A stretch of 34,365 bases of DNA from an uncultured Parvibacter sp. (GTDB taxonomy: Bacteria; Actinomycetota; Coriobacteriia; Coriobacteriales; Eggerthellaceae). Below the pieces are notes generated by a model. It was not told the origin of the DNA, did not search any database, and was given only the letters and a program-made list of their open reading frames with translations. Below are positions 5,173 to 21,191 of the stretch, piece by piece (position 1 is the first letter of the stretch; every line of letters starts with the position of its first letter). The stretch covers positions 1-34,365 of the forward strand of contig CANSTH010000011.1 in assembly GCA_947649875.1 (NCBI GenBank), in the 5' to 3' direction. The translations under genes were made by a program, and so were the position numbers.

Positions 5173-5384
5173 TCCAATAAACCTATAGGTTTCCGGCGAC
5201 ATCCTCCCAAAACGGGCCGGTTCTTATCATGTAAGATTTTGTTCACTAAAAGTGGCGAAAAAACTTATATATCCCCAGTTCAGAGCCATATGAAGAGAAA
5301 CTTGTTTCCTTGAATTGGCCCCTGTTCTCCCCCTACACTTTAGTCACGGAAAAAGGCATTTTCCAAGAAGGAGAAGGAGGAGAA

Positions 5385-7889
5385 ATGACCGATTCTTCGC
5401 AACCGCTTAACCGCATTTCCCGCCGAAGCTTTTTGAAGGCTTCGGGGGCCGCGGCGGGCATACTGGGAATAGCAGGGGCTTCCTCGGTGCTGTCGCTGGC
5501 CGTTGAGCAAGGCAACGCCAACGCCCAACCTTCCGAGTACATTGCCCGCACCTACCACCAGGTGCACTGCGGCGGCATGTGCTCGCTGGCCTGCACGGTA
5601 CGCGACGGGCGCCTGGTGAAGGTGCAACCTAATGGGGTGGGCAACCCCGACTTCCAGACCATTTGCCTGAAGGGCATCTCGGAAGTGTCCCATATCTACG
5701 GCACCGGCCGGGTGCAAGCGCCGATGAAGCGCACCGGGGCCCGCGGCGCCGGCGAGTTCGAGCGCATCAGCTGGGATCAGGCGCTGGACGAGATCGCTGC
5801 TGCCATCAAAGAGGCCCAGGCGGCCCACGGCAACGATGCAGTGCTGGTAATGACCACCGATGAGGCGGACTTCGGCTTCCTGGCCCCCATGCTGGGAGCC
5901 CAAACCGGCGGCATGTCCGGCATCGACGTGGGAATTGGAAACGGCCTCGACCCGGCCACGGGAATGGGCGCTGGCTACGCCATGAGCGCCCCCGAGGCCC
6001 GCGACTGGCAGCGCTCCAAGCTGGTGCTCACCGTGGGCTCCAATTACTGCGAATCCAGCTTGCCCAACGTTTTCACTTTCCTGGATGCCAAAGAGGCGGG
6101 CGCTCATATGGTTACCGTAGACCCCCACTACTCCACGACCGCCTCGAAATCCGACGAGTGGATTCCCATTGAGCCGGGCACAGACGCGGCGCTGTTCTTG
6201 GGGATGACCTCTTATATCTTGGCCAATGGGCTGGCCGACGAAGAGTTCATGAAACTGCACACTAGCCTGCCCTTCCTGGTAGACCAGGCCAGCGGCCAGC
6301 TGGCCCGTCACCACGGTACCACAGCCATCGCCACGGCGGCCAACTTCGCCACCGACTCTGTCGCTGCCGCCGGAGAGCTGGGCGAGATATCGGTGGGCGG
6401 CAGCCCCAACGAGGGAGCCTCCGATGGAGCCACCCCGGCGGTCCCGGAAACCGGCGAGGAGAATCCCTTCTACGTTATCGATGCCGCCACTGGCGTTCCC
6501 ATGCCCTACAACAGCTGCGACAATCCCCAGCTGGAAGGCACCATCACCATCGGGAACAGCAGCTATGCGACCGCCTACAGCCTGCTGCTGGACACCCAGG
6601 CACCCTTCACCACCCAATGGGCAGCAGAAATCACCGGCATCCCGCAGGAGCGCATCGAGGCGCTGGCGAAAGAGTACGCCGAGGGCCCCTCGGCTCTGGC
6701 GCTGGGCTGGGGTGGCAACGACAAGATGACCAATGCCGACATCGCCGGCCACGCCGCCGCTATCCTCACTGCCGTCACCGGCAACATCGGCAAGCCCGGC
6801 GCCGGCGTGGGGGTTTACGTGGGTCCCTCTTACAACGGCTACAGCGCACCGCTGGGCAGCTGGGCCCTCCCGGAGGACTGGGCCGTGGCCTCCTCCACCT
6901 TGAGCCTCTACGACATGCCCTTCAAGCAGAACAACGTCCATGGCGCCATCTTCTGCGGCGACTTCGTGGCCCAGCATGTAGCGGCCATGGACAACCTCAC
7001 CCAGTGGGTGGATACCCTGGACTTCGTGGTGAGCATCGACCCCTACTTCACCGAGGGCGCAAAATGGGCCGACTACGTGCTGCCCGCCACCTCTCGCTTC
7101 GAGTACGACGAGCCCTTCGGCAATGTGAAGAGCGGCTACAGCCAGATAGTCATCCAGGAGAAGGTGATCGACCCGCTGTTCGAGGCGAAAACGGACCTGT
7201 GGATCACCCGCGAGATAGCCAAGCGACTCGGCCTGGAAGCGGGGCTGCCCGCCACCGCCGTGGAGCGCTGCAACGCCATCTTGGCCAGCTCGGCCGAAGA
7301 GTGGGTGTCCAGCCTTACCGTGGAGCAGATTTCCGAAAACGGCGCCGTGTGGCCGGTGCCCGACCGCGATACCATCCGTGAGGTAGTGCCCGATCTGGTA
7401 TTCCCCACCACTTCCGGCCGCATGGACGTGTACTACGACAACCTGGTGGAGTACGGCCAGGAACTGCCCCAATGGGAGGCCTGCACCGAAATCGCCGACG
7501 AGGCGCTGCGGGCCCAGTTCCCCCTGCAGCTGTCCAACGTGCGCACCCGCTTCCGCATCCACAACCAGTTCTACGACGCCGACTGGCTGCAGCTGCTGTA
7601 CGAGCCGCTGATCATGATCAACCCCGAGGACGCCAGCGCCCGCAACCTTTCCACCGGCGATGTGGTGAAGGTGTACAACAACCGCGGCAGCTTCCAGGTG
7701 AAGGTGGCGGCCAACAACGCCATCCGCCCCGGCTCGGCCCGCATCTACGAAGCCGCCACCGCCCTGCACAACGTAGAGGGCAACCTGCAGAGCACCACCA
7801 ACGACACCCTCATCCAGCGCGGCAGCGCGCTGATGTGCGGCCCGGTCATTCCGTTTTCGGACACCCTGGTGGAAATCGAGAAAGCTTAA
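5385..7889 (+). CDS. Tat-exported molybdopterin-dependent oxidoreductase, DMSO reductase family catalytic subunit
   Basis: Tat motif SRRSFLKASGAAAGILGIAG; 4Fe-4S CGGMCSLACTVRDGRLVKVQPN...CLKG; RISWDQALDEIA; MoPt-binding motifs; SD ggaggag before ATG. Confidence 0.92.
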   Translation: MTDSSQPLNRISRRSFLKASGAAAGILGIAGASSVLSLAVEQGNANAQPSEYIARTYHQVHCGGMCSLACTVRDGRLVKVQPNGVGNPDFQTICLKGISEVSHIYGTGRVQAPMKRTGARGAGEFERISWDQALDEIAAAIKEAQAAHGNDAVLVMTTDEADFGFLAPMLGAQTGGMSGIDVGIGNGLDPATGMGAGYAMSAPEARDWQRSKLVLTVGSNYCESSLPNVFTFLDAKEAGAHMVTVDPHYSTTASKSDEWIPIEPGTDAALFLGMTSYILANGLADEEFMKLHTSLPFLVDQASGQLARHHGTTAIATAANFATDSVAAAGELGEISVGGSPNEGASDGATPAVPETGEENPFYVIDAATGVPMPYNSCDNPQLEGTITIGNSSYATAYSLLLDTQAPFTTQWAAEITGIPQERIEALAKEYAEGPSALALGWGGNDKMTNADIAGHAAAILTAVTGNIGKPGAGVGVYVGPSYNGYSAPLGSWALPEDWAVASSTLSLYDMPFKQNNVHGAIFCGDFVAQHVAAMDNLTQWVDTLDFVVSIDPYFTEGAKWADYVLPATSRFEYDEPFGNVKSGYSQIVIQEKVIDPLFEAKTDLWITREIAKRLGLEAGLPATAVERCNAILASSAEEWVSSLTVEQISENGAVWPVPDRDTIREVVPDLVFPTTSGRMDVYYDNLVEYGQELPQWEACTEIADEALRAQFPLQLSNVRTRFRIHNQFYDADWLQLLYEPLIMINPEDASARNLSTGDVVKVYNNRGSFQVKVAANNAIRPGSARIYEAATALHNVEGNLQSTTNDTLIQRGSALMCGPVIPFSDTLVEIEKA

Positions 7890-7904
7890 AAGGAGGTTTG
7901 AGGA

Positions 7905-8522
7905 ATGACTCGTTTAGCAATCGCCATCAACCTTGACCGCTGCGTGGGCTGCCACACCTGCACCATGGCCTGCAAGATGCAGAACAACGTGCCGGAAGGG
8001 CTGCTGTGGAACCGCGTGCTCACCACCAACTGCGACGTGGTGGACGGCGCCGAGGGCACCTACCCCAACGTAAGCCGCGTGTACACCCCCATCGCCTGCC
8101 AGCACTGCCAAAACGCCGCCTGCCAGCGGGTGTGCCCCACCGGCGCCACCTATAAGGACGAGAAGGGCCGCGTGGAAATCGACTACGAGAAGTGCATCGG
8201 CTGCCGCATGTGCATGGCCGCCTGCCCCTACAACGCCCGCGTGTTCAACTGGCAGACCCCCGTGCGCACCACCGGCGCCAACTACGGCGATGCCGCCGTG
8301 CCGGTGCGCCCCAAGGGAGTGGCCGAGAAGTGCACCCTGTGCAAGGAGCGCACCGACAACGGCGAAGAGCCCATGTGCGTGGTGTGCTGCCCCGCCCACG
8401 CCCGCATCTTCGGCGACTTGGACGACCCCGACAGCGAGGTGTCGCGCCTGGTGCGGGAGCGCCACGGCTATCAGATGCTCGAGGACATGGGCACCAATCC
8501 ATCGGTGCACTACATCGGTTAG
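7905..8522 (+). CDS. 4Fe-4S dicluster electron-transfer subunit (DmsB/NrfC/PhsB-like)
   Basis: RCVGCHTCTMACKMQNNVPEG, CQHCQNAACQRVCPTGATYKDEKG, KCIGCRMCMAACPYNARVF, CTLCKERTDNGEEPMCVVCCP. Confidence 0.95.
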   Translation: MTRLAIAINLDRCVGCHTCTMACKMQNNVPEGLLWNRVLTTNCDVVDGAEGTYPNVSRVYTPIACQHCQNAACQRVCPTGATYKDEKGRVEIDYEKCIGCRMCMAACPYNARVFNWQTPVRTTGANYGDAAVPVRPKGVAEKCTLCKERTDNGEEPMCVVCCPAHARIFGDLDDPDSEVSRLVRERHGYQMLEDMGTNPSVHYIG

Positions 8523-8532
8523 GAGACAACTT

Positions 8533-9711
8533 ATGCAACTCATCAAGCGATACAAAGTGGCCTCGGCGCTGCTGGCGGCGCTCGTGGTGGTGGGCGTTGG
8601 CTGCTGGATCTACCAGCTGCTGCAGGGCCTTACCGTGACCGGCATGAACAACGGCACCTCGTGGGGCCTCTACATCACCAACTTCATGTTCTTCGTGGGG
8701 CTTTCCGCCGGCGGTCTGATTGTGGCCTCCTCCGCCAGTGTGTTCCACATCGCCAAATTCAAGCAGGTGGCACTGCCCGCCATCATCCTCTCCACCGTGT
8801 GCATCTGCGCTGCCGGCATGTTCGTGCTCATCGATTTGGGCGGCGTGCAGCGGGTATGGCGGCTGATTACCGGCCCCAACCCCACCTCGCCTTTGCTGTG
8901 GGACGTGTGCGTAATCACCTGCTACCTTATCATCAACATCTGCTACCTGACGTTCATGGCCAGGGGCAACAACCGCGCCGTCACCATCACCTCCCGCTTC
9001 GCCCTGCCCTGCGCTATCCTGGTGCACTCGGTAACCGCGTGGATCTTCGGCTTGGAGATTGCCAAAGAGGGCTGGAACTCCGCCATCCTGGCCCCCATCT
9101 TCGTGGCCAGCGCCATGGACTCCGGCCTGGCCCTGCTCCTGCTGGTACTGTCGGCCCTGAAGAAGGCCCGCATCTTCGACACTTCCCGCGACCTCATGGC
9201 CTCGCTGGCCGGCCTTCTGGCCACCTGCATCGCGGTGGACGCCTTCTTCATCTTCTGCGAGCTGCTCACCATGGGCTACAACGGCACCCACGGCGCCACC
9301 GTCATCCTGAACGAGCTGTTCTTCGGCGCCACCGCCCCCTTCTTCTGGTTCGAGGTGGTGGGCGGCCTGGTGGTGCCCTTCTGCATCCTGGTGTTTCAGA
9401 AGAACCGCGAAAAGCCGCTGCTGGTGAACATCGCCTGCGCGCTGGTGGTGCTGGGCGTGTTCTGCAAGCGCGTGTGGCTGCTGTTCACCGCCTTCATCAC
9501 CCCCAACCTCATGGGCGCACCGGGGCTCATCTCGGGCTCCAGCGAGGCCATTCGCGAAACTGGCACCGCCTCGTTCGCCGTACTCAGCTCCTACGCCCCC
9601 ACCGTGTTCGAGGTGCTCATCGTGGTTGGAGTGCTTGCCCTGGTGGTGCTGGCCTTTCTGCTGTTGGCGGGGCTGCTGCTTAAGCCCGGCAAGCCAAAAG
9701 CATCCGAATAG
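8533..9711 (+). CDS. NrfD/PsrC-like membrane subunit
   Basis: Multi-TM protein; NGTSWGLYITNFMFFVGLSAGGLIVASSASVF typical of NrfD family; directly follows DmsB-like gene. Confidence 0.92.
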   Translation: MQLIKRYKVASALLAALVVVGVGCWIYQLLQGLTVTGMNNGTSWGLYITNFMFFVGLSAGGLIVASSASVFHIAKFKQVALPAIILSTVCICAAGMFVLIDLGGVQRVWRLITGPNPTSPLLWDVCVITCYLIINICYLTFMARGNNRAVTITSRFALPCAILVHSVTAWIFGLEIAKEGWNSAILAPIFVASAMDSGLALLLLVLSALKKARIFDTSRDLMASLAGLLATCIAVDAFFIFCELLTMGYNGTHGATVILNELFFGATAPFFWFEVVGGLVVPFCILVFQKNREKPLLVNIACALVVLGVFCKRVWLLFTAFITPNLMGAPGLISGSSEAIRETGTASFAVLSSYAPTVFEVLIVVGVLALVVLAFLLLAGLLLKPGKPKASE

Positions 9712-9836: not shown

Positions 9837-9862
9837 TTGTGTGCAAGGAGGCAAGAGCTGCC

Positions 9863-10759
9863 ATGGATGCCCAGAAGGCGCACTTCGTCACCCTCTGGTG
9901 TGCCGCCATCTCGAAGTTCGAGAAGGGGCTGGGGCGGGCTTTGGCCCCCACCCTCACTGCGGCCCAGTATCGCGTTTTGGCCTCCCTTGCCCTTCCGGAA
10001 GCGGACCAGGGCACCAAGGCCCGCCTGGCCTGGACCGCCTCCATGCGTCCCGACGAGGTGGAGGCCGCTCTGGAGGACTTGGCCCAGGCTTCTCTGGTGG
10101 CGCTGCCCTCCCCCCATGACCCCCGCGGTGCCGCCCGCCTCACCAATACCGGCCGCGAGGCGCTGCAGCGGGCCAATGGCGCTGTGACCGAATGGGAGCA
10201 GCAGTGCGCCGAAGCGCTGCAGCCCAGCGAGCAGCAGCTGCTGGCCTCCGTTTTGGCCCGCGCCCTCACTGTGCCCGGCAGCTACTACGCCCGCCACCTG
10301 CAACCGGGCGCCCAGGGGCTTTCCCCAGTACAGCGAGTTACCGTGCTCCACGCCATCCATCAGGCCATGGCCCATGCCATACGGAAGAACACCGACCTCT
10401 CCCTTACCGACTTCCGCTTTCTGCTGGAGCTGTATCCGAAAAAGCAGCGGGGCGACAAGCGGCTGCGGGCTAGGGAAATTGTGAGTTACTTGCGGGTGGG
10501 GCGCTCCTATGTTACAACTGCCTCCCTGCGGCTGGAGCAGGAGGGCCTCATCGAGCGCATTCCCGACGAGCAAGACGCCCGGGGCATCCTTTTCCGGCTC
10601 ACTCCCCAAGGCGCCCAGGCAGTGCAGGCCGCCGGAGACGACATCTTCGTGCTGCTCACGTCGCTTTTCGGGAATCTTATGGAAGACCGCCGATTCCTGC
10701 TGCTCATGAAACATTGGCTAAGGGCAGAGGATGAGGCGCTTGCGACTAAGAGGCCCTGA
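9863..10759 (+). CDS. Tandem MarR-like (two wHTH) transcriptional regulator
   Basis: First MarR-like repeat ...LTAAQYRVLASLALPEADQ...MRPDEVEAALEDLAQASLVALPSPHDPRGAARLTNTGREAL; second ...LSLTDFRFLLELYPK...LRVGRSYVTTASLRLEQEGLIERIPDEQDARGILFRLTPQGAQAV; SD aaggagg. Confidence 0.75.
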   Translation: MDAQKAHFVTLWCAAISKFEKGLGRALAPTLTAAQYRVLASLALPEADQGTKARLAWTASMRPDEVEAALEDLAQASLVALPSPHDPRGAARLTNTGREALQRANGAVTEWEQQCAEALQPSEQQLLASVLARALTVPGSYYARHLQPGAQGLSPVQRVTVLHAIHQAMAHAIRKNTDLSLTDFRFLLELYPKKQRGDKRLRAREIVSYLRVGRSYVTTASLRLEQEGLIERIPDEQDARGILFRLTPQGAQAVQAAGDDIFVLLTSLFGNLMEDRRFLLLMKHWLRAEDEALATKRP

Positions 10760-10763
10760 CCCT

Positions 10764-13169
10764 ATGAAAACCGCCCCCGACAAAACCGTGCTCCAATCGT
10801 GCGGGTTCAACTGCGGCTCCCGCTGCCAACTGCGCCTTCATGCGGAAGACGGACAGGTTGCGTGGGTGGAATCCGACACCGGCCCCGATGCCCCTGACGC
10901 TCCCCAAATGCGCGCCTGCCTGTGCGGTCGCGCGTGGGGTCACTGGGTGAACAGCCCCCATCGGTTGGACTATCCGCTGAAACGGGTGGGGCCCCGCGGC
11001 TCCGGGCAGTTCCAACGCATCAGCTGGGACGAGGCATTGGACGAGATTGCCGCGCAAATCAAGCGCATCACCGCCGATTTCGGGCCCGAGGCCATCTTCT
11101 TCCCCTATGCTTCGGGTATCTTGGCCAGCGGGCAATCGCCGCTGGAGCGGGCGATAGACTGCTACGGCGGCCACTTGCGTCTGCATTCCGACTACAGCAG
11201 CGCGCAATTGCAGGCCGGGACGATGGCCCTGTTCGGCGACGACGGCTATTACAGCGGCTCGCCTTTGGAAGAGGCCGCCAACTCCGATGTGCTGGTGCTG
11301 TTCGGCTCCTCGATGTTCGCCACCCGCCAGGGAGGCGCCGCGGGCGGCCACTATCTCAACCAGCTGCGAGAGCAGGCGGCCGCCGAGGGGCGCCCCTTCA
11401 AGGTGGTGTCCATCGACCCTCGCCACACCCCCGAGGTGCGCGGCGCCCAAGACCAGTGGATACCGCTGCGCCCGGGCACCGATGCCGCCTTCGTGGCCGC
11501 CGTCATCCACGAGCTGCTGATAGACGGCCTGGCCGACGAGGAGTTGCTGCGCAGCCATTGCGTGGGCTTCTTCGAAGACACGCTGCCCCCGGGCACCCCG
11601 CCCCACAGCAGCTACAGCGACTACGTTTTGGGGCGCGGCCCCGACGGCACCGAGAAAACCTGCGCCTGGGCGGCCGCCATCACCGGTTGCCCCGCCGCCA
11701 CTATCCGCCAATTCGCCCGCACGCTGGCCCAGGCCAAGAGCGCCTTCATCACCCAAGGATGGGGGCCGCAGCGCAGCGAGTACGGCGAGCAGACCAGCCG
11801 CGCCATATGCCTCTTGGCGGTGGCCAGCGGCCACTTCGGACGCCCCGGCACCAACAGCGGCGTCCATGAGCCGATGCGCCCCTACACCCCCTCGCTGCCG
11901 GGCGGCCGGGAGAACCCCGTGCGCGCCGCACTGCCGGCGTTCCTGTGGACCGAGTGCCTGCAAGGGGGCGGCATCACTCAGGCCCAAGGGCTGCGAGGCG
12001 CCCAGCAGCTGCCCTTCCCCATCAAGATGATCGTCAACCATGGCGGCAATTGCCTCACCAACCAGCATGCCGCCATCAACGCCACCCACGACCTACTGGC
12101 GGACGAGAGCCGCTGCGAGTTCATCGTGGTGTGCGATGTGATGCTGAACGACTCCGCCCGCTATGGCGACATCGTGCTGCCCGAGCTGGCCCTGGGCGAG
12201 CGGGAAAACGCCGTGCTCTCCGGTTTCGGCGACCGGGTGAGTTGTTTGCGCCATGGCGAGAGCTGGAGCCACTTCACCGGCGAGCGCCGCGATCCCTGGA
12301 GCATCGGGCGCGCCCTGGCCGAAAGGCTGGGAGTGCTGGAAGCCTTTGAAGAAGGCGCAGGGGACGGCGACGAAACGCTAGCGGCGCGAATGGCCAGCGA
12401 AGGGCAGGTGTTCGCCGCCTCTTCCGCGGACTCCGCCGGCCACACGGGCGAAGACGACAACGGAAAGGCCGCTGCTTCTGCCGGCCGTGCAGACGAGGAC
12501 GCCCGGAGGCTACCCGCCCCCGGACATGAGATGCGGGCCCTGCGCGCGCCACTGCCCTGCGCCTACGGGGCCTTCCGCGCCAATCCCACGGCGCATCCGC
12601 TGCCCACTCCCTCCGGCAAGATAGAGGTGTACTCAGAGGCCCTCGCCCGCATGGCCCAGACGGCCCAGCTGCCCGATGGCCAAGTCATCAGCCCCATACC
12701 CGCCTATCTTCCAGCCGCAGAAGGGCCTGGTTCCCCCACCGCCGAGCGCTTCCCGTTGCAGCTCATCACCTACCACGGCTACCAGAGCATCCATTCCAAC
12801 TTCTCCCACCTAGCCATCGTGGAGTCGGTAATGCCCCACGCCCTTCAGGTGAACCCTGTGGATGGGGCGGCAAACGCCTTGGTGGAGGGCCAGCCAGTAG
12901 TGGTGGAGAACGATCGCGGAGCGCTGGTGGCCCGCGTGCACCTTACCCCCTGCATCATGCCCGGCGTGGTGGCGCTGCCCAACGGCGCCTGGCACAACGC
13001 CGACATGGCCGGCTCGCGGCTGGACTGGGGCGGATGTGCCAACACCCTCACCTCCTTGCGCCCCAGCCCCATCGCCCGGGGCAATGGCCAGAACAGCTGC
13101 CTGGTAAGGCTGCGCCCCCTTACCGCCGAGGAGCAGGCAGCAGGAAGGGAGCGGGGCTATGACTGCTAA
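10764..13169 (+). CDS. Molybdopterin-dependent oxidoreductase, DMSO reductase family, no recognisable Tat signal
   Basis: MKTAPDKTVLQSCGFNCGSRCQLRLHAEDG...CLCGRAWG; RISWDEALDEIAAQIKRI; LHSDYSSAQLQAG; PLQLITYHGYQSIHSNF. Confidence 0.9.
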   Translation: MKTAPDKTVLQSCGFNCGSRCQLRLHAEDGQVAWVESDTGPDAPDAPQMRACLCGRAWGHWVNSPHRLDYPLKRVGPRGSGQFQRISWDEALDEIAAQIKRITADFGPEAIFFPYASGILASGQSPLERAIDCYGGHLRLHSDYSSAQLQAGTMALFGDDGYYSGSPLEEAANSDVLVLFGSSMFATRQGGAAGGHYLNQLREQAAAEGRPFKVVSIDPRHTPEVRGAQDQWIPLRPGTDAAFVAAVIHELLIDGLADEELLRSHCVGFFEDTLPPGTPPHSSYSDYVLGRGPDGTEKTCAWAAAITGCPAATIRQFARTLAQAKSAFITQGWGPQRSEYGEQTSRAICLLAVASGHFGRPGTNSGVHEPMRPYTPSLPGGRENPVRAALPAFLWTECLQGGGITQAQGLRGAQQLPFPIKMIVNHGGNCLTNQHAAINATHDLLADESRCEFIVVCDVMLNDSARYGDIVLPELALGERENAVLSGFGDRVSCLRHGESWSHFTGERRDPWSIGRALAERLGVLEAFEEGAGDGDETLAARMASEGQVFAASSADSAGHTGEDDNGKAAASAGRADEDARRLPAPGHEMRALRAPLPCAYGAFRANPTAHPLPTPSGKIEVYSEALARMAQTAQLPDGQVISPIPAYLPAAEGPGSPTAERFPLQLITYHGYQSIHSNFSHLAIVESVMPHALQVNPVDGAANALVEGQPVVVENDRGALVARVHLTPCIMPGVVALPNGAWHNADMAGSRLDWGGCANTLTSLRPSPIARGNGQNSCLVRLRPLTAEEQAAGRERGYDC

Positions 13170-13833
13170 GCGCGCTACCACCGCCGCCCCAAAAGGGGCA
13201 GCCCCGTCGCCAGACCGGGAGCAGTACGGCTTCACCTTCAACCAGAACCGCTGCTCGGGGTGTCGCACCTGCGAACTGGCCTGCAAGGATTACCATCATC
13301 TGGAAGGCGATGTGGCCTTTCGCACCATCCATGAGTTCGTGGGAGGCGAATGGCATCAGAACAACGACGGCAGCTGGGACCAGGACGTGTTTTCGTTCTA
13401 CGTGTCCATGTCTTGCAACCATTGCAGCAATCCCGCCTGCCTGCGGTTCTGCCCATCGGACTCCATTTCCAAAGACAGCAACGGGTTCGTGGTGGTGAAC
13501 AGCGATACCTGCGTGGGCTGCCAATCGTGCATGGTGGCCTGCCCTTACCACGCCCCTCGCTTCGACGAGGCCAGCGGCCACACAGTGAAGTGCGACGGCT
13601 GCCGCGACCGCATAGAGGCGGGGCTCAAGCCCATCTGCGTGGAGGCGTGCCCGCAGCGGGCGCTGGAATTCGGCCCCTACTCCCATCTCTCCGACAACGC
13701 TGACGTGGTAGAGCAGGTGGGCACCATGCCCAGCCCCGACATAACGCAGCCCAACTACGCCATTATCCCGGCCCCTCACGCCCAAGGCACCACCGGCAGC
13801 AACGCCCAACTAATCAACTGCCGCGAGGTGTAG
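13159..13833 (+). CDS. 4Fe-4S ferredoxin-type electron-transfer subunit (DmsB-like)
   Basis: NRCSGCRTCELACKDYH, CNHCSNPACLRFCPSDSISKD, TCVGCQSCMVACPYHAPRFDE; start overlaps upstream stop (atgactgctaa). Confidence 0.93.
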   Translation: MTAKRATTAAPKGAAPSPDREQYGFTFNQNRCSGCRTCELACKDYHHLEGDVAFRTIHEFVGGEWHQNNDGSWDQDVFSFYVSMSCNHCSNPACLRFCPSDSISKDSNGFVVVNSDTCVGCQSCMVACPYHAPRFDEASGHTVKCDGCRDRIEAGLKPICVEACPQRALEFGPYSHLSDNADVVEQVGTMPSPDITQPNYAIIPAPHAQGTTGSNAQLINCREV

Positions 13834-13836
13834 GCG

Positions 13837-14412
13837 TTACTGCATCGGATCCAGCAGGATCCTGTTCCCCGATTGCGAGAATTCGAACAACCAGTCGGTT
13901 AGCTCCTCAGGAGAAACCTTCAGCCCCGATCGCAGCCATTCGGTGATAACCCCCACGTTTGCGCCGGCGGTGAAATGGGCCGCGTAGCGGTACTTCTCGC
14001 TGCAATTGCCCGTCTCGCCGCGGAACAAATCGATGCTGGCGGCGGCCAGCACCTCCCGCATCACCTGGCCGATGATGCCGATACGACCCTGCACTACCGC
14101 CGACGCATAGAAGTCCCGGTTGTCGTAGATGGTCTCCAGCATCCGCTGCGTGAGCATCTTTCCGCCGGCCGTCCCCGAACCCATGGGCAGAAGATCCATC
14201 ATGGTGGCAATGGGCGTCACCACATCGCCGCGCACGATGCTCCGCAGCACCCCTTCTTTCCCATCAAAGTAAACATAGAGAGTCTTGCGCGACACACCGG
14301 CACGCTCGCAGATGTCCACCACGGTAATCTTGTCGTAGTCGGTCTCCTGCAAGAGCCCCTTGAAAGCCTCCATTATGCGGGTCGGCGTGTCTTCCCCTCC
14401 GCGTTTATCCAT
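13837..14412 (-). CDS. TetR/AcrR family transcriptional regulator
   Basis: IMEAFKGLLQETDYDKITVVDICERAGVSRKTLYVYFDGKEGVLRSI. Confidence 0.92.
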   Translation of the reverse strand: MDKRGGEDTPTRIMEAFKGLLQETDYDKITVVDICERAGVSRKTLYVYFDGKEGVLRSIVRGDVVTPIATMMDLLPMGSGTAGGKMLTQRMLETIYDNRDFYASAVVQGRIGIIGQVMREVLAAASIDLFRGETGNCSEKYRYAAHFTAGANVGVITEWLRSGLKVSPEELTDWLFEFSQSGNRILLDPMQ

Positions 14413-14478: not shown

Positions 14479-14579
14479 CGTTCTCTGTCACTGTCGTGTC
14501 CAGAGCCTTTCACCTCACCATGGCTTCAACAGGAATCGCAGAGGAGGCGATTCCGCTCTTTTGAGAAGGGGGACGATCA

Positions 14580-15599
14580 GTGAAGAATCTCCAACCCATC
14601 ACCGAGGAAGGCTTGTCGCGGCGAAACTTCCTCACCGGCGCCGGCATAGTGGCCGGCGGCGTGGCGGCGGCCGCAATGCTGCCAAACATCGCCCATGCCG
14701 AAGAGTCTGTGGCTGCCCAACCGCTGCCGGGCGCCACCAACGGCAACAAGCTGTGGGAGGGCACCCAGCTGGCACTGGGACGCGTGGTGCACAATCCCGA
14801 CATCTGCTCCGGCTGCCGCACCTGCGAAATCGTATGCTCCACCTTCCATGAAGGAAAGGCCAGCTCGTACCGCTCACGACTGCAATGGGACAAGGCGGTG
14901 ATGGACGCCTGCATCACCGACATCCACACCTGTCGCCAATGCGCCGGCCCCGAGTGCGTGGCGGTGTGCCCCACTGGCGCCCTGTCCATCGACCCGGAAA
15001 CCGGCGCCCGCGTGATCGACGAGGAAGTGTGCGTCGGCTGCCGACTGTGCGAAGGGGCCTGCCCGGTAAAACCCTCCATGATTCGCTACGACGAGCGCAC
15101 CAGCACCTGCTTCAAGTGCGACCTGTGCGGTGGCGACCCCCAGTGCGTGAAGTTCTGCCCCACCGGCGCCCTGCAATCCTCCTGGGATATTCGATCCGCC
15201 GAAGAGGAAGACGACGGTTTCTGGGAAATCGAGGTTACCGGCGATGCCAAGACCTTCGCCCATATCGAGAAGCCCACGCTGGTGCTTTCCGATGTGTCCG
15301 GCGGCATTCAGTTCGATGGCGTTGTGTGGACCAGCCACGCCACTCAGTTCAACATCATCATGGCCACCTTCGATGCCACCGCCGAAGCCTACGACAAGAG
15401 CGGCAACTCGGTGGGCACCTCCGACAGCAGCGCCCATATGGAAATCCCCGAAATGCAATCGGCGGAATTCTCGCTGTTCATCCCCACATCCGCAAAGGTG
15501 GCCGACCTGGGGCACATGGCATTGCGCATCGAGAGCGCCTACATAACCAACGCACCGGGCGAAGAAGCTGCGGCTGACGGCGCCGCCCAGACGGCATAG
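14580..15599 (+). CDS. Tat-exported 4Fe-4S protein with C-terminal extra domain
   Basis: GTG start; Tat motif LSRRNFLTGAGIVAGGVAAAAMLP; four Cys clusters incl. CSGCRTCEIVC, CRQCAGPECVAVCPTGAL, CVGCRLCEGACP, CFKCDLCGGDPQCVKFCP. Confidence 0.9.
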   Translation: MKNLQPITEEGLSRRNFLTGAGIVAGGVAAAAMLPNIAHAEESVAAQPLPGATNGNKLWEGTQLALGRVVHNPDICSGCRTCEIVCSTFHEGKASSYRSRLQWDKAVMDACITDIHTCRQCAGPECVAVCPTGALSIDPETGARVIDEEVCVGCRLCEGACPVKPSMIRYDERTSTCFKCDLCGGDPQCVKFCPTGALQSSWDIRSAEEEDDGFWEIEVTGDAKTFAHIEKPTLVLSDVSGGIQFDGVVWTSHATQFNIIMATFDATAEAYDKSGNSVGTSDSSAHMEIPEMQSAEFSLFIPTSAKVADLGHMALRIESAYITNAPGEEAAADGAAQTA

Positions 15600-15609
15600 G
15601 AGGAAAACC

Positions 15610-17565
15610 ATGGCAGATTTGTACGGATATACCGGTAAGATTCTAGTGGTGGACCTCACCAGCGGGGAAACCTCCACACTGGACACCACCAACTACACCG
15701 ACTTCATCGGCGGCCGCGGCATGGGCGCCAAGCTGCACTGGGATCTGGTGGGCCCCGACGTGAAGGGCACCGACCCGGAAAACGTGCTGGCCTTCACCAC
15801 CAGCCCCACCACCGGCACCCCGTGTCCCGGCGGCCAAAAAACCTGCGTCACCGGCGTGGCGCCCCACATGTACCCAGTGGAGACTTACCTGAAAAGCGTG
15901 TTCGGCGGCATGTGGGGCCCCGAGCTGAAGTACGCCGGCTGGGACGGCGTGGTGTTGAAGGGCGCTTCTGCTACCCCGGTGTACATCCTCATCCAGGACG
16001 ACCGGGTGGAAATCCGCGACGCCGACGATTTATGGGGATTGGACACCCAGTCCACCGAGCGCATGTTGTGGGACCGCTTTGACGACAAGCACCGCATCGT
16101 CACCATCGGCCCTGCCGGTGAAAATCTGGTAAGCGATGCCGTCATCCTTTCCGACGACTCCAATACCGCAGGCAAGGGCGGTTTCGGCGCCGTAATGGGC
16201 TCTAAGAAAGTGAAGGCCATCGTGGTACGCGGCACCGGCGAGGTAACAATGGCGCGCCCCGAGGAGTTGCTAGAGCTGGCCTATGAGAGCCAACGACTGA
16301 TCACTCGCAAGGAAACCGAAGCGCAACCATCACACCCCTACCGCGGCAGCCTGTTCGGCCCGCTTTCCACCGAAGGCAATGACATCTGGAAAGAGGGGCA
16401 AGAGGGCAAAAATGTGCGCACCGGCCTGGCCGGCTGCATGATGTGCCCCATTGCCTGTGGCATGTCCATCAAGTTCAAAGACGGCTACAGCGAATCCACC
16501 GGCCACATCATGTGCGTAGAATGCAACGCCGAGCCAGAAGAAATGGTAGTGGAAAACGAGAACTGGGGTCGCGCCGCCTTCTCGCGCCTGAAGGAAATGG
16601 ACAAGATGGGCTACTCGGTGTGGTCCATGCACTTGGACATCTGGCCGCTGTTCACCTACGGGGTGCTGAAACCGGAGGACCTGGAAATCGATGCCCCGGT
16701 AGGCTCTAAGAAATTCTCGAAAGAGCTTGTGCGCAAGATCAGCATGCGCGAAGGGCTGGGGGACGAGCTGGCCAAGGGCCGCGCCCACTTCCTCAACGAG
16801 TTCATTGGCACCGACCAAACCAAGCTCATGTACCAGATGCAGGCGGTTACCTCTGGCCAAAGCCGTCTCACCTATAACTACGGCGCCAACTTCTACGGCC
16901 CCATTGGCTGGGTGGGCTGCTGCGTTTCCCGCGGCCGCGACAACGACCAAACCTGGGCGTTCTCCAACACCATCACCGACCCGCGCGTGGTAGCGCCGGG
17001 AAGCAAAGCCTACATGCAACTGCAGCAGGATATCGGCAATATGCTGTGGGATACCGACCAAGGGGCCATCGACAACGCCAATCGTGTGGTGTCCGACAAA
17101 ATTGCCCCCATGGCCTATACCGCCCACAACTTCAAGTGCTGGGTAGACACCGTGGGCAGCTGTTCCCAGTTCATGCCCCATATTTCCATGTATTCCGACA
17201 ACTATATGGGCAAATGGGATATCCGGCGCCAACTGGTGTCGGCAGTTTCCGGCCTGGACATCGACTCCGATGAAAAGGAAAACGAGTACTGCGACCGTAT
17301 TTGGATGCTGGAGCGCTGCATCGGCGCCCGCCAGGGGCAAACCAAAGAAGACGACTGGATGTACGACTGCATATTCGAGGATCCCTCCTATAAGGACTGG
17401 GGCCTTACCCGCGAAGGGCTGCGAAGCGCCATCGATCAGTACTACGAGATTCGCGGCATCGACGTGGAAACCGGGCTGCCGAGGCGCTCGACACTGGAGC
17501 GGCTGGGGCTCAAGGACGTGGCCGACCGCATGGAAGGTGAGTACGGCATCGCGCTGCCGGCCTAA
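15610..17565 (+). CDS. Aldehyde:ferredoxin oxidoreductase family enzyme (YdhV-like tungsto/molybdopterin oxidoreductase)
   Basis: YGYTGKILVVDLTSGETSTLDTTNYTDFIGGRGMGAKLHWD; GPAGENLVSDAVILSDDSNTAGKGGFGAVMGSKKVKAIVVRGTG; GCMMCPIAC; C-term GLPRRSTLERLGLKDVADRM. Confidence 0.93.
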   Translation: MADLYGYTGKILVVDLTSGETSTLDTTNYTDFIGGRGMGAKLHWDLVGPDVKGTDPENVLAFTTSPTTGTPCPGGQKTCVTGVAPHMYPVETYLKSVFGGMWGPELKYAGWDGVVLKGASATPVYILIQDDRVEIRDADDLWGLDTQSTERMLWDRFDDKHRIVTIGPAGENLVSDAVILSDDSNTAGKGGFGAVMGSKKVKAIVVRGTGEVTMARPEELLELAYESQRLITRKETEAQPSHPYRGSLFGPLSTEGNDIWKEGQEGKNVRTGLAGCMMCPIACGMSIKFKDGYSESTGHIMCVECNAEPEEMVVENENWGRAAFSRLKEMDKMGYSVWSMHLDIWPLFTYGVLKPEDLEIDAPVGSKKFSKELVRKISMREGLGDELAKGRAHFLNEFIGTDQTKLMYQMQAVTSGQSRLTYNYGANFYGPIGWVGCCVSRGRDNDQTWAFSNTITDPRVVAPGSKAYMQLQQDIGNMLWDTDQGAIDNANRVVSDKIAPMAYTAHNFKCWVDTVGSCSQFMPHISMYSDNYMGKWDIRRQLVSAVSGLDIDSDEKENEYCDRIWMLERCIGARQGQTKEDDWMYDCIFEDPSYKDWGLTREGLRSAIDQYYEIRGIDVETGLPRRSTLERLGLKDVADRMEGEYGIALPA

Positions 17566-17612
17566 ACGCCAGTCAAACGGCCATTTGATTTCTGCACAAC
17601 ATAGGAGGGGAC

Positions 17613-18167
17613 ATGGACGAGAAAGTACGGGCCATCCAAGAGCGACTGCGACAGCAGTTCGGTGCCTCGATGGTGCCCGGGCAACGCTTCGACGGCGTGC
17701 CGCTGGTGGCATTCGACGAGGTGGCAGGGCTTCCTACCGGGGGCGAAGCCTTCGTGGACAACCTGCTCGCGGAGCTGAAGCGCCGCGGATGGCGGGTGGC
17801 CCACGTAGTGCGGCAGCTGGCGGAGGGCGTCGATGCCCCGGAGGCCAGCGAGCCCGTTACTGAACCGGACGCATCGGTAACGGTGGGGCAAGGGCGCCTG
17901 ACCATTTCCCGTCCCATTCCCCCCGCCGATGCCCTCGATGCCGCCGTGGATGCGGTGCGGGAAGGCTACGACATCGTGATCGGACAGAACTTCGGTTTCG
18001 CCATCGTGCCCCGCGTGCTGCTCACCCGACGGGTGCAAGAGGGCTTCAACCTGGGGCTCCCCAATGTGGTGGCCTATGTGTCCGACAGCGGACTGGACGT
18101 GGCCATCCCCCACTTCACTGCGCTGGAAGTCGAGCGGCCGATCTCATCGAACAAACCCTGGGGCTAG
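17613..18167 (+). CDS. MobB-like protein with degenerate P-loop
   Basis: VPLVAFDEVAGLPTGGEAFVDNLLAELKRRGWRVAHVVRQ, YDIVIGQNFGFAIVPRVLLTRR, NVVAYVSDSGLDVAIPHF follow the order of MobB motifs; SD ggagggg. Confidence 0.55.
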   Translation: MDEKVRAIQERLRQQFGASMVPGQRFDGVPLVAFDEVAGLPTGGEAFVDNLLAELKRRGWRVAHVVRQLAEGVDAPEASEPVTEPDASVTVGQGRLTISRPIPPADALDAAVDAVREGYDIVIGQNFGFAIVPRVLLTRRVQEGFNLGLPNVVAYVSDSGLDVAIPHFTALEVERPISSNKPWG

Positions 18168-18198
18168 AAAAAGCTCTGGATACCTTAGAGGAGTAATT

Positions 18199-19197
18199 AT
18201 GGGAGAAATTGCATTGCAAACCTCATGGGGCGTGCAGATTGCTCTCTACCTGTTCTTGGGCGGCCTAGCCGGCGGCACTGCGCTGGTAACTGGCATTGTC
18301 CAACTGAAACAGGGCGAGAGGTTCAAGAACCTGGTGCGCTTCGGGGCATGGGCGGCGGTGCTGCTTCTGCTGGCAGGCGTGCTGTGCCTGGTGACGGAGG
18401 TTACCATGCCGCTACGGGCCATGCAGCTGTGGCGCGCTTTCACCAACCCCATATCCTGGATGACCATCGGCGCCTGGCTGCTGGTGGCCGGCATCGTGGC
18501 AACGGGGCTGTTCGCCCTTGCGGCCACCCCGGCCATCGGGGGCAAGGTGCTGGGGCAGAAGGCCCCTTCCTTCAAGCGGGTGCTGGCCATCATATCGGCC
18601 GTATTGGGCGCCTGCATCGCCATCTACACCGGCATCCTGCTGTGCGTGCTGCTGAACCATCCGCTGTGGAACACCCCGCTTCTGCCGGTTCTGTTCACCG
18701 TTTCCGCCTTCGATACCGGCATTGCCCTCATCTGCACCTACCTGTGCCTGGGCAAGCCCTTGGGGGCGGCGAAGGAAGCGCCTGCGAAAGACACGCCTTC
18801 CGAGCCTGATGCGGTCGACGGCGAGAAAGCCGCCACGGCCATGAAGGTCACAGAAGATGCTGCCGTCCTTGCCAAGATGACCGCTCTGCTGGAGGAGTGC
18901 AGCGTTGGGCTGATTGCCGCCGAGGCCGTTGTGCTTGCTGTGCTGCTGCTTATGACCAGTGGCGCCGGCGAGGCTGGGGCGCTTTCCGCTTGGGTGCTGA
19001 CCGCAGGGCCCCTGGCCGTGCCCTTCTGGGTGATTCTCATCGTGGCGGGCCTGGCAGTGCCGCTGGTGCTGGAGCTTTTACAGCTCAAGGGCAACCATGC
19101 GAAGTGGATGGCACTCGCCTCCCCCTTGCTCATCTTGGTGGGCGGCTGCGCACTGCGCTTCCTTATCCTGTACGCTGGCCTTCCCCTTGCCCTGTAG
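18199..19197 (+). CDS. NrfD-like membrane anchor subunit
   Basis: WGVQIALYLFLGGLAGGTALVTGIVQL plus about 8 TM segments; SD gaggag before ATG. Confidence 0.85.
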   Translation: MGEIALQTSWGVQIALYLFLGGLAGGTALVTGIVQLKQGERFKNLVRFGAWAAVLLLLAGVLCLVTEVTMPLRAMQLWRAFTNPISWMTIGAWLLVAGIVATGLFALAATPAIGGKVLGQKAPSFKRVLAIISAVLGACIAIYTGILLCVLLNHPLWNTPLLPVLFTVSAFDTGIALICTYLCLGKPLGAAKEAPAKDTPSEPDAVDGEKAATAMKVTEDAAVLAKMTALLEECSVGLIAAEAVVLAVLLLMTSGAGEAGALSAWVLTAGPLAVPFWVILIVAGLAVPLVLELLQLKGNHAKWMALASPLLILVGGCALRFLILYAGLPLAL

Positions 19198-19210
19198 GAG
19201 GCGACTTGCT

Positions 19211-20050
19211 ATGACTTCTATTCAAACTGCTACGCCCCGCTCATCGGTAAGCCGCCGCAACTTCTTGGGCGCGCTGGGGGCTGCCGGCGCCGGGCTTGTG
19301 GCCGCCGCTGCGGCAACGGCCGTGCCCGCCCTTGCCGCCGACAACCTGTCGGGCAAGAAGGGCATTCTGTTCGACGCCACCAAGTGCGTGGGCTGCCATT
19401 ACTGCGAAGTGGCCTGCAAAAAGGCCAACGGGCTTACCTGCGATGTGGCCCTGGACTTGAAGGCTCTCCCCGAAAGCGCCGTTCCCAGCGGCATGAAATC
19501 CGCCGATGTGCTGTTCGGCAAGAACCGCCCAGCGCCCGTAACCGAAGACGACCGCGATGCTAACCGCTGGCTGCGGGTGGTGCGCACCACCGTCGCTGAC
19601 GGCGACAGCAAAGTGGAGCTGAACATGCGCCACTCCTGCACCCACTGCGGCCTATGCGCCAGCGTGTGCCCCTCCGGCGCCATGAATAAGCGCGAGGACG
19701 GCATTATAGACGTGGACCGCGAGCTGTGCATCGGCTGCGGCTACTGTTATCAGGCCTGTCCCTTCGACATTCCCCACTACCCGGCCGAAGGCGACCGAGC
19801 GGTGACGAAATGCACCGGCTGCGCTGGTCGCGTGGACGAGGGGCTGGAGCCCGCCTGCGTGTCCATCTGCCCCACCGGCGCCCTGGCCTTCGGCGATCGC
19901 GCCTCAGTAGCCGCCTCGGGCGAAGCACGCGCGGCGGAGGTCGGCGGCAACGCCCACCTCTTCGGCAAGACTGAGCTGGGCGGCATCGGGGTGATGACGG
20001 TGACAGCCCACTCCAGCCAGGACAGCGGACTGCCGCCCCTGCCCAACTAG
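19211..20050 (+). CDS. Tat-exported 4Fe-4S dicluster protein (HybA/NrfC-like)
   Basis: Tat motif VSRRNFLGALGAAGAGLVAAAAATAVPALA; KCVGCHYCEVACKKANG, CTHCGLCASVCPSGAM, LCIGCGYCYQACPFDIPHYP, CTGCAGRVDEGLEPACVSICPTGAL. Confidence 0.93.
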   Translation: MTSIQTATPRSSVSRRNFLGALGAAGAGLVAAAAATAVPALAADNLSGKKGILFDATKCVGCHYCEVACKKANGLTCDVALDLKALPESAVPSGMKSADVLFGKNRPAPVTEDDRDANRWLRVVRTTVADGDSKVELNMRHSCTHCGLCASVCPSGAMNKREDGIIDVDRELCIGCGYCYQACPFDIPHYPAEGDRAVTKCTGCAGRVDEGLEPACVSICPTGALAFGDRASVAASGEARAAEVGGNAHLFGKTELGGIGVMTVTAHSSQDSGLPPLPN

Positions 20051-20060
20051 CCCTCCCCTC

Positions 20061-20099
20061 GGGGCGTCCGCATCCCCCTGACATTTCAGCGGGCGCCCC
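20061..20099. terminator. Hairpin in 4Fe-4S/fdhD intergenic region
   Basis: ggggcgtccgc (20061-20071)/gcgggcgcccc (20089-20099), one mismatch, followed by ttt. Confidence 0.5.
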
Positions 20100-20110
20100 T
20101 TTCCGCACAA

Positions 20111-20140
20111 ACAGCGCCCCAACCCCCCACGGGGCGCTGT
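20111..20140. terminator. Second hairpin in 4Fe-4S/fdhD intergenic region
   Basis: acagcgcccc-aaccccccac-ggggcgctgt, perfect 10-bp arms. Confidence 0.5.
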
Positions 20141-20276
20141 CTGCAAGAACGTCAAGGCAGCATGGGGCATTTACGGTGCGGTTTCACCGCGTTCAGCAGG
20201 GCGGATTGCCTGCGGCCACCCGACACAGGCGCGCTTGCCCCCCATCTTCGCCTTTCCCGTATCCGAGGTGATTCCC

Positions 20277-21191
20277 GTGAAAGCCATCGGCTGTTCCCCC
20301 GCCCAACCGACGCTTGCCAGCTGCGAGTACGCCCTGTGCCGCCCCGACGGCAGCGCCTCGGCGGTGCAAAGCCAAACCCAACACGAGCACCTGCTGAGTA
20401 TCGTGATGAACGGCCAGCTGGCCTTCACCCTCACCTGCACTCCGCAGTACCTGTTGGAACTGACACTGGGGCGGCTGTTCAGCGAGGGGCTGATAAGCGA
20501 CATCAGCGACGTTGCCTCTATCCACGGCTGTCAGAAGGGCGATGTGGTGAAAGTGAAGCTGCAGGACGGCGCCCGGTTCGAGCAGGCGAAAGCCGTTCGC
20601 GTATCTACCTGCAACGACGCCCGCGAGGCTCACTTGGCAAGGCGGCGCCGTCTAGAGCTTCCGCCGCTGGAACCCGCCGTCTTCGACCGCCGTTGGGTGT
20701 TCGCCGCCGCCGAGGCCTTCGCCCAGGACACCCCCATGCACCAACGCTCGCGGGGCGCCCACAGCTGTTCTTTGGCGCAAGGCGGGCGTATACTGTTCTC
20801 GTGCGAGGATCTGGGCCGCCACAACGCCTTCGACAAGGCTATAGGCTGGGGGCTGCGCAACGGGGTGGACTTCCGCCGCTGCTTCGCCATAACCAGCGGC
20901 CGCGTGCCCACCGACATGGCCGCCAAAGCGGTGCGCGCGGGCATTCCCGTGCTGCTGTCCGCCTCGGTGCCCACCGATGCAGCCCTGCAACTGGCCCACG
21001 AGAAAAACCTCACCATCATCGGCCGCATCAAACCCGATGGCGTAGCAGTCTATCACGACCCCACGGGCTCGATGGCCATGCCTTACCACATATCTTCCAG
21101 CGTCACCAAACGGCAGCCTGCCTTCTGCGCTTCGGCCCTGCACTCTTCAGTGAATCCCGCCTTCGAGAACAGAAGCAGTTGCAGGGGCTGA
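20277..21191 (+). CDS. fdhD: FdhD-family sulfurtransferase (Mo/W cofactor sulfuration)
   Basis: GRILFSCEDLGRHNAFDKAIGWGLRNGVDFRRCFAITSGRVPTDMAAKAVRAGIPVLLSASVPTDAALQLAHEKNLTIIGRI; GTG start with SD gaggtg (an upstream TTG at 20235 is possible). Confidence 0.9.
   Translation: MKAIGCSPAQPTLASCEYALCRPDGSASAVQSQTQHEHLLSIVMNGQLAFTLTCTPQYLLELTLGRLFSEGLISDISDVASIHGCQKGDVVKVKLQDGARFEQAKAVRVSTCNDAREAHLARRRRLELPPLEPAVFDRRWVFAAAEAFAQDTPMHQRSRGAHSCSLAQGGRILFSCEDLGRHNAFDKAIGWGLRNGVDFRRCFAITSGRVPTDMAAKAVRAGIPVLLSASVPTDAALQLAHEKNLTIIGRIKPDGVAVYHDPTGSMAMPYHISSSVTKRQPAFCASALHSSVNPAFENRSSCRG

Follow-up and report, generated by a model that had tools for sequence, protein, structure and literature searches.

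A cluster of six genes built around an AOR-family enzyme was analysed in a 34,365-nucleotide stretch of DNA from an uncultured Parvibacter sp. of the Eggerthellaceae (assembly GCA_947649875.1, contig CANSTH010000011.1, positions 1-34,365; hereafter the window). Sequence comparisons indicate that this cluster probably encodes a quinone-linked enzyme complex exposed on the outside of the cytoplasmic membrane. The initial annotation of this DNA had described six same-strand genes, for an iron-sulfur protein with a twin-arginine translocation (Tat) signal, the AOR, a MobB-like protein, an NrfD-like anchor, a second Tat-signalled iron-sulfur protein and FdhD, and all six are indeed found in this order on the + strand of positions 14580-21191. 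The two iron-sulfur proteins are called FeS1 (the first, WorS-like) and FeS2 (the second), and L003 designates the locus of a second species of the genus. Families were named using Pfam and NCBIfam profiles, and the features of the region are as follows.

14580-15599, + strand: FeS1, WorS-like tetra-[4Fe-4S] partner of the AOR, with Fer4 and an N-terminal Tat signal; GTG start
15610-17565, + strand: AOR-superfamily catalytic subunit, WorL-like (AFOR_N, AFOR_C)
17613-18167, + strand: MobB-like protein without the P-loop lysine (GLPTGGEA), a weak MobB relative
18199-19197, + strand: NrfD-family integral membrane protein (PF03916, 1.8e-35), predicted quinone interface
19211-20050, + strand: FeS2, Tat-signalled tetra-[4Fe-4S] protein, HmcB/HybA-like (Fer4), predicted link between FeS1 and NrfD
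20061-20143, + strand: two strong GC-rich hairpins 3' of the FeS2 gene, terminator-like, without a T tract
20277-21191, + strand: FdhD, predicted cofactor sulfurtransferase; GTG start, in-frame TTG at 20235
13837-14412, - strand: divergent TetR-family regulator, with a 68% identical ortholog at the same place in L003
14436-14461, no strand: intergenic palindrome GGTAACAA-N10-TTGTTACC, candidate TetR operator

The AOR matches both domains of its family above the cut-off (AFOR_N 2.8e-65, AFOR_C 3.7e-31) and Fer4 domains are present in FeS1 and FeS2. FdhD matches its family at 7.6e-57 and passes TIGR00129 (150.9 bits for a cut-off of 140.9). The intergenic gaps are, in gene order, 10, 47, 31, 13 and 226 nucleotides.

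Co-inheritance, proposed export and predicted membrane anchoring

The main evidence that FeS2 belongs to the AOR, and is not merely its neighbour, comes from its distribution. FeS2 orthologs (E <= 1e-40) were detected in 3 of the 399 genomes of the order, and all three lie within this AOR locus. In L003 all six genes recur in unchanged order with 60-83% identity, so this order is not due to chance. This is the arrangement of the closest named relative, the Eggerthellaceae metagenome-assembled genome JAAVZC010000001.1, where the set is accompanied by the TetR gene and the upstream DmsAB-like genes. Gene-neighbourhood conservation, put forward in the initial annotation as a check, thus speaks for the cluster: the whole set is kept in a second species and FeS2 is co-inherited with the AOR across families. 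When 400 genomes of the class were searched, clear AOR orthologs were obtained only in the window genome (G000) and in G080, G009, G008 and G422. G422, from another family, shows a rearranged FeS2 - short ORFs - FeS1 - AOR order on a 6.3-kb contig that ends inside FeS2. No usable NrfD match was found elsewhere in G422, whose contig stops before the expected place of this gene, and a match to FdhD of only 33 residues (E 0.15) was not counted. No ortholog of the AOR, FeS2 or the MobB-like protein was detected in G079, the third of the genus. In G084 (L072:4624-4989), an AOR frame beside an intact Tat-FeS ortholog fuses the first 100 residues to the last 20; this is either a large in-frame deletion or an assembly fault, and the sequence was left out of the trees described below.

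FeS1 carries the N-terminal Tat signal SRRNFLTGAG...AHA and passes TIGR01409 with 26.9 bits (cut-off 16.7); FeS2 has SRRNFLG and a hydrophobic stretch ending in ALA. Both FeS partners therefore carry the Tat motif (SRRNFL in each), as first described, and the AOR itself, with the N-terminus MADLYGYTGKIL, has no signal peptide. TatC is encoded. FeS1 also has an extra C-terminal region of ~130 residues, and its orthologs in L003, L072, L035 and L081 retain both this region and the Tat motif. Across the AOR groups defined in the next section, the motif was found on the FeS partner of all intact members of the window group (4/4) and in 27 of 29 pairs of its sister group, and in neither the aldehyde-oxidase-type (0/7) nor the L038-type pairs (0/6); the motif used did not count TRR-x-V-L, which is seen in most Coriobacteriia YdhV partners. 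Hydrogenases and formate dehydrogenases are known to use Tat hitchhiking (PMC10924467), and by analogy the untagged AOR would be carried out by the tagged FeS1.

One could also suppose that the AOR is soluble in the cytoplasm and that the adjacent genes for the Tat-FeS proteins and NrfD make up an independent module, since the characterised AORs are all cytoplasmic, this one has no signal peptide and NrfD paralogs are very numerous. This explanation is quite improbable, because the Tat signal is borne by the direct FeS partner of the AOR, encoded 10 nucleotides upstream, throughout the clade and its sister clade, and because FeS2 follows the AOR from one family to another.

The anchor in the window consists of the PF03916 NrfD protein, which has an ortholog in L003, together with FeS2; a PF03916 protein adjoining a Tat-FeS protein is the arrangement expected of an NrfD quinone module. 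By comparison, E. coli YdhU and three examined sister-group neighbours with 4-5 transmembrane segments are cytochromes b561 (PF01292). The proposal that NrfD takes the place of the YdhU cytochrome is thus valid as a comparison between clades (PF03916 versus PF01292), and the more general idea of a Tat-linked, NrfD-anchored AOR-family unit is strengthened by the co-inheritance of its parts.

Other respiratory genes are found in these genomes. NrfD matches amount to ~30 per genome in G000, G080 and G079, a large expansion of respiratory modules. In the window, a module at 5310-9711 (+ strand) comprises a Tat-signalled DMSO-reductase-family enzyme (5310-7889), an FeS protein (7905-8522) and a multi-transmembrane NrfD-like frame recognised by eye (8290-9711), after which a MarR-like regulator (9839-10759) was also assigned by eye. 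It is followed at 10731-13833 (+ strand) by a DmsA-like enzyme lacking a Tat signal and a DmsB-like protein, with no adjoining anchor gene. The pair also precedes the AOR cluster of L003 (60 and 73% identity).

Phylogenetic position and active site of the AOR

AOR-family genes were present in 105 of the 140 genomes of the family, and ~60 of their neighbourhoods were gathered and annotated. Two trees were built, with 63 sequences in the first and 61, including anchors of solved structure, in the second; they contain several long branches and their root is arbitrary. Five groups were resolved in both: (1) the true YdhVs, from E. coli and 11 from Coriobacteriia; (2) aldehyde-oxidase types, with Pf AOR, 9mqx and FOR; (3) the L038 type, without Tat partners; (4) the Tat-FeS/AOR pairs of Coriobacteriia, a large group; and (5) the window group, with five members, which is sister to group 4 (support 96/91).

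The kinship to E. coli YdhV suggested in the initial annotation did not survive this analysis. The two proteins are only 26% identical and fall in different clades, and true YdhVs, ~50% identical to that of E. coli, are encoded elsewhere in the genus; G080 possesses a window-type AOR plus two of them. Monophyly of the window group with YdhV was rejected (approximately unbiased test, p-AU 0.004), and so was a grouping of YdhV, the window group and the sister clade (p-AU 0.017). By sequence, the window AOR is placed outside the YdhV clade of these trees, and the published clade 41 may be wider than that clade. The true YdhVs of Coriobacteriia (L040, L043, L047, L048, L054, L055, L056 and L073) are divergent from a YdhY - DmsA-like - YdhX - NrfD set and hence also adjoin NrfD.

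These results bear on the Class V WORs, which are defined by membrane association and a Tat-signalled or transmembrane small subunit, are said to be restricted to clade 41, with Eggerthella and Gordonibacter among the carriers, and have no known activity (PMC13328260, June 2026). The idea of a Tat-linked, membrane-associated AOR is therefore already published. FeS1, with its Tat signal, has the small-subunit character of this class, and the cluster might be regarded as an ordinary Class V (clade 41, YdhV) member with a changed anchor: its Tat-signalled small subunit and membrane partner fit the definition, the Cys ligand described below is common to YdhV, and clade 41 is possibly broader than the YdhV group of our trees. 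We nevertheless find this rather unlikely in view of the low identity to E. coli YdhV, the separate clade, both p-AU values and the coexistence of true YdhVs in the same genomes.

The active site was inspected in an alignment of 67 sequences. The window AOR retains the CxxCx3C motif and the distant Cys that coordinate the [4Fe-4S] cluster in the AOR/WOR family (C276, C279, C283 and C518). C302 occupies the column of BamB Cys322, a tungsten ligand (PMC12096430, from which the roles of the Cys322, Glu313 and His448 positions were taken), and is accordingly a putative metal ligand. Outside the aldehyde-oxidase group, this column holds a Cys in every sequence (52 of 52), and none of these 52 combines the equivalents of Pf Glu313 and His448. 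Conversely, the 15 aldehyde-oxidase-type sequences all have Glu and His and no Cys. The same review confines the Cys ligand to BamB and YdhV; here, the alignment would extend it to three further groups, unless the YdhV clade of PMC12096430 is wider.

The window AOR lacks the Glu313/His448 pair of aldehyde oxidases, which makes simple aldehyde oxidation unlikely, and on this alignment it is probably not an aldehyde oxidase. An exported aldehyde oxidase passing electrons to menaquinone might still be imagined, as the AOR fold and the [4Fe-4S] ligands are retained and the activity most often found in the superfamily is aldehyde oxidation (PMC13328260). This is very unlikely, given that a Cys ligand replaces the pair and that CsWOR41 oxidised none of 46 aldehydes (PMC13328260).

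Candidate maturation genes and probable transcription units

The FdhD of the window is the only one found in G000, and G080 likewise has a single FdhD. No formate dehydrogenase alpha subunit was matched in either genome (TIGR01591, E <= 1e-100), while this profile was matched in G079, G009 and G056. Both genomes are incomplete, and the absence of any other FdhD and of a detected formate dehydrogenase suggests that FdhD serves the AOR. G079 and G009 contain a different FdhD elsewhere in the genome (40% identical). In the AOR-linked FdhD paralogs of G009 and G008 (L035:7444-8280 and L036:1-834), TSGFGG stands at the site where the canonical G009 protein has TCCTGN, and the Cys expected at this position is missing. 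FdhD also adjoins CsWOR41 (PMC13328260).

The protein annotated as MobB-like does align with MobB, and this part of the description stands, but its P-loop lysine is gone: the sequence is GLPTGGEA in the window and GLPNGGET in L003, instead of GxxxxGK[ST]. GTP binding is thus doubtful. E. coli YdhV is reportedly a bis-Mo-MPT (molybdopterin) enzyme with a Cys and probably a sulfido ligand, as Reschke et al. are said to have described in 2019, and FdhD could, by analogy, supply such a sulfido ligand. A maturation role for the MobB-like protein and FdhD is plausible, since the tungsten formate dehydrogenase of Methylorubrum requires both MobB and FdhD (PMC13197769). Equivalence of the MobB-like protein to E. 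coli YdhW was discarded (no BLAST match, sequences unlike), and, of the weak matches elsewhere in the class, the three examined (L076, L079 and L080) proved to be genuine MobBs, all adjoining moeA and two of them moaA as well.

Transcription as a single operon, as initially proposed, is consistent with the tight packing of the first five genes and probably does not include fdhD. The 226-nucleotide gap preceding it folds into strong hairpins (z -4.9), and an equivalent hairpin lies 3' of the FeS2 gene in the same gap of L003. We therefore read the region as a five-gene unit followed by fdhD, probably as its own transcript. The TetR gene points away from the cluster, with the palindrome listed above retained in the intergenic region.

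Further structured elements were noted. A leader hairpin at 14532-14554 of the window, GGAATCGC-AGAGGAG-GCGATTCC, corresponds in L003 to GGAGCCGC-GGAGGAG-GCGGCTCC, with two compensated pairs and the purine-rich loop retained; each of the two genomes has a single mismatch-free copy. The FeS2-FdhD interval of L003 (12505-12622) also contains a very strong long palindrome, GTTGTCATCCTGAGCGGAG ... CTCCGCTCAGGATGACAAC (z -10.1), which looks like a small repeat element and is absent from the window. An Rfam search of the region gave nothing credible.

Proposed function and relation to known systems

Like the Class V WORs (E. coli YdhY/YdhV with YdhWXUT; CsWOR41), the window complex would combine an AOR-family large subunit, a Tat-signalled four-cluster small subunit, membrane partners and a Cys ligand, and CsWOR41 of C. 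somerae also has FdhD nearby. It differs by the clade of its AOR, by NrfD and FeS2 instead of cytochrome b561, by a MobB-like protein instead of YdhW and by the extra C-terminal region of the small subunit. What is new here is thus the different large-subunit clade, the co-inherited NrfD/FeS2 module, the extended small subunit, the P-loop-less MobB-like protein and the FdhD argument. The Coriobacteriia sister clade (L058, L060, L067, L082 and others) shares the Tat-FeS protein beside the AOR, the Cys ligand and, in many loci, an adjoining membrane protein; its anchor, however, is a b-type cytochrome (PF01292), its FeS partner is shorter, and it has no second Tat-FeS protein, NrfD or nearby FdhD. 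BamBC, the class II benzoyl-CoA reductase, resembles the window AOR in its Cys322-type ligand, the lack of a Glu/His pair and an FeS partner subunit, but it is cytoplasmic and bifurcating, with flavin and selenium-type subunits, and lies far apart in the tree. NrfCD/HmcB-type modules have the same exported four-cluster FeS protein with NrfD, as predicted from the genes for the window, and their partner is of the DMSO-reductase family or a cytochrome c rather than an AOR. Finally, MobB of moeA-mobB-moaA clusters is alignable with the window protein across the MobB domain, whereas the latter has lost the P-loop lysine and sits in an AOR cluster.

In the proposed mechanism, the AOR would fold around a bis-pterin Mo/W cofactor in the cytoplasm and then hitchhike across the membrane on the Tat signal of FeS1. 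Electrons could then be exchanged along AOR - FeS1 - FeS2 - NrfD - menaquinone. FdhD, perhaps with the P-loop-less MobB-like protein, would finish the cofactor, with a sulfido ligand contributed by FdhD. As to the direction of electron flow, a reductase driven by menaquinol is slightly favoured over an oxidase. More tentatively, the window AOR may represent a further Cys-ligated lineage outside BamB and YdhV, acting as an extracytoplasmic menaquinone-linked reductase through NrfD. Its cofactor, matured by a dedicated FdhD and a MobB adaptor devoid of the P-loop, would then bear a sulfido ligand (and possibly be a dinucleotide form), in contrast to the family's aldehyde oxidases.

Several observations weigh against such a membrane complex or limit this reading. 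G009 and G008, which have an FeS1-AOR-FdhD arrangement, contain no FeS2 ortholog and no NrfD beside these genes; this AOR clade therefore does not strictly require the NrfD module. The two full-set genomes are incomplete (86% and 93%), and the recombinant large subunit of C. somerae was recovered without its small subunit (PMC13328260). AlphaFold2 models from two-sequence alignments (window and L003) reached a mean pLDDT of 41 for the MobB-like protein and 31 for FeS1, and the full set was not traced to any cultured organism.

To our knowledge, no physiological reaction is known for the membrane-associated AOR-family enzymes, even though such an enzyme is present in E. coli and in many gut bacteria. 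The locus described here is a compact, regulated variant with few candidate subunits and with candidate maturation genes. Tat-signalled small subunits and the Cys ligand are indicated beyond the YdhV and BamB clades, contrary to PMC13328260 and PMC12096430, so that the group of non-aldehyde, probably respiratory AORs would be larger than described.

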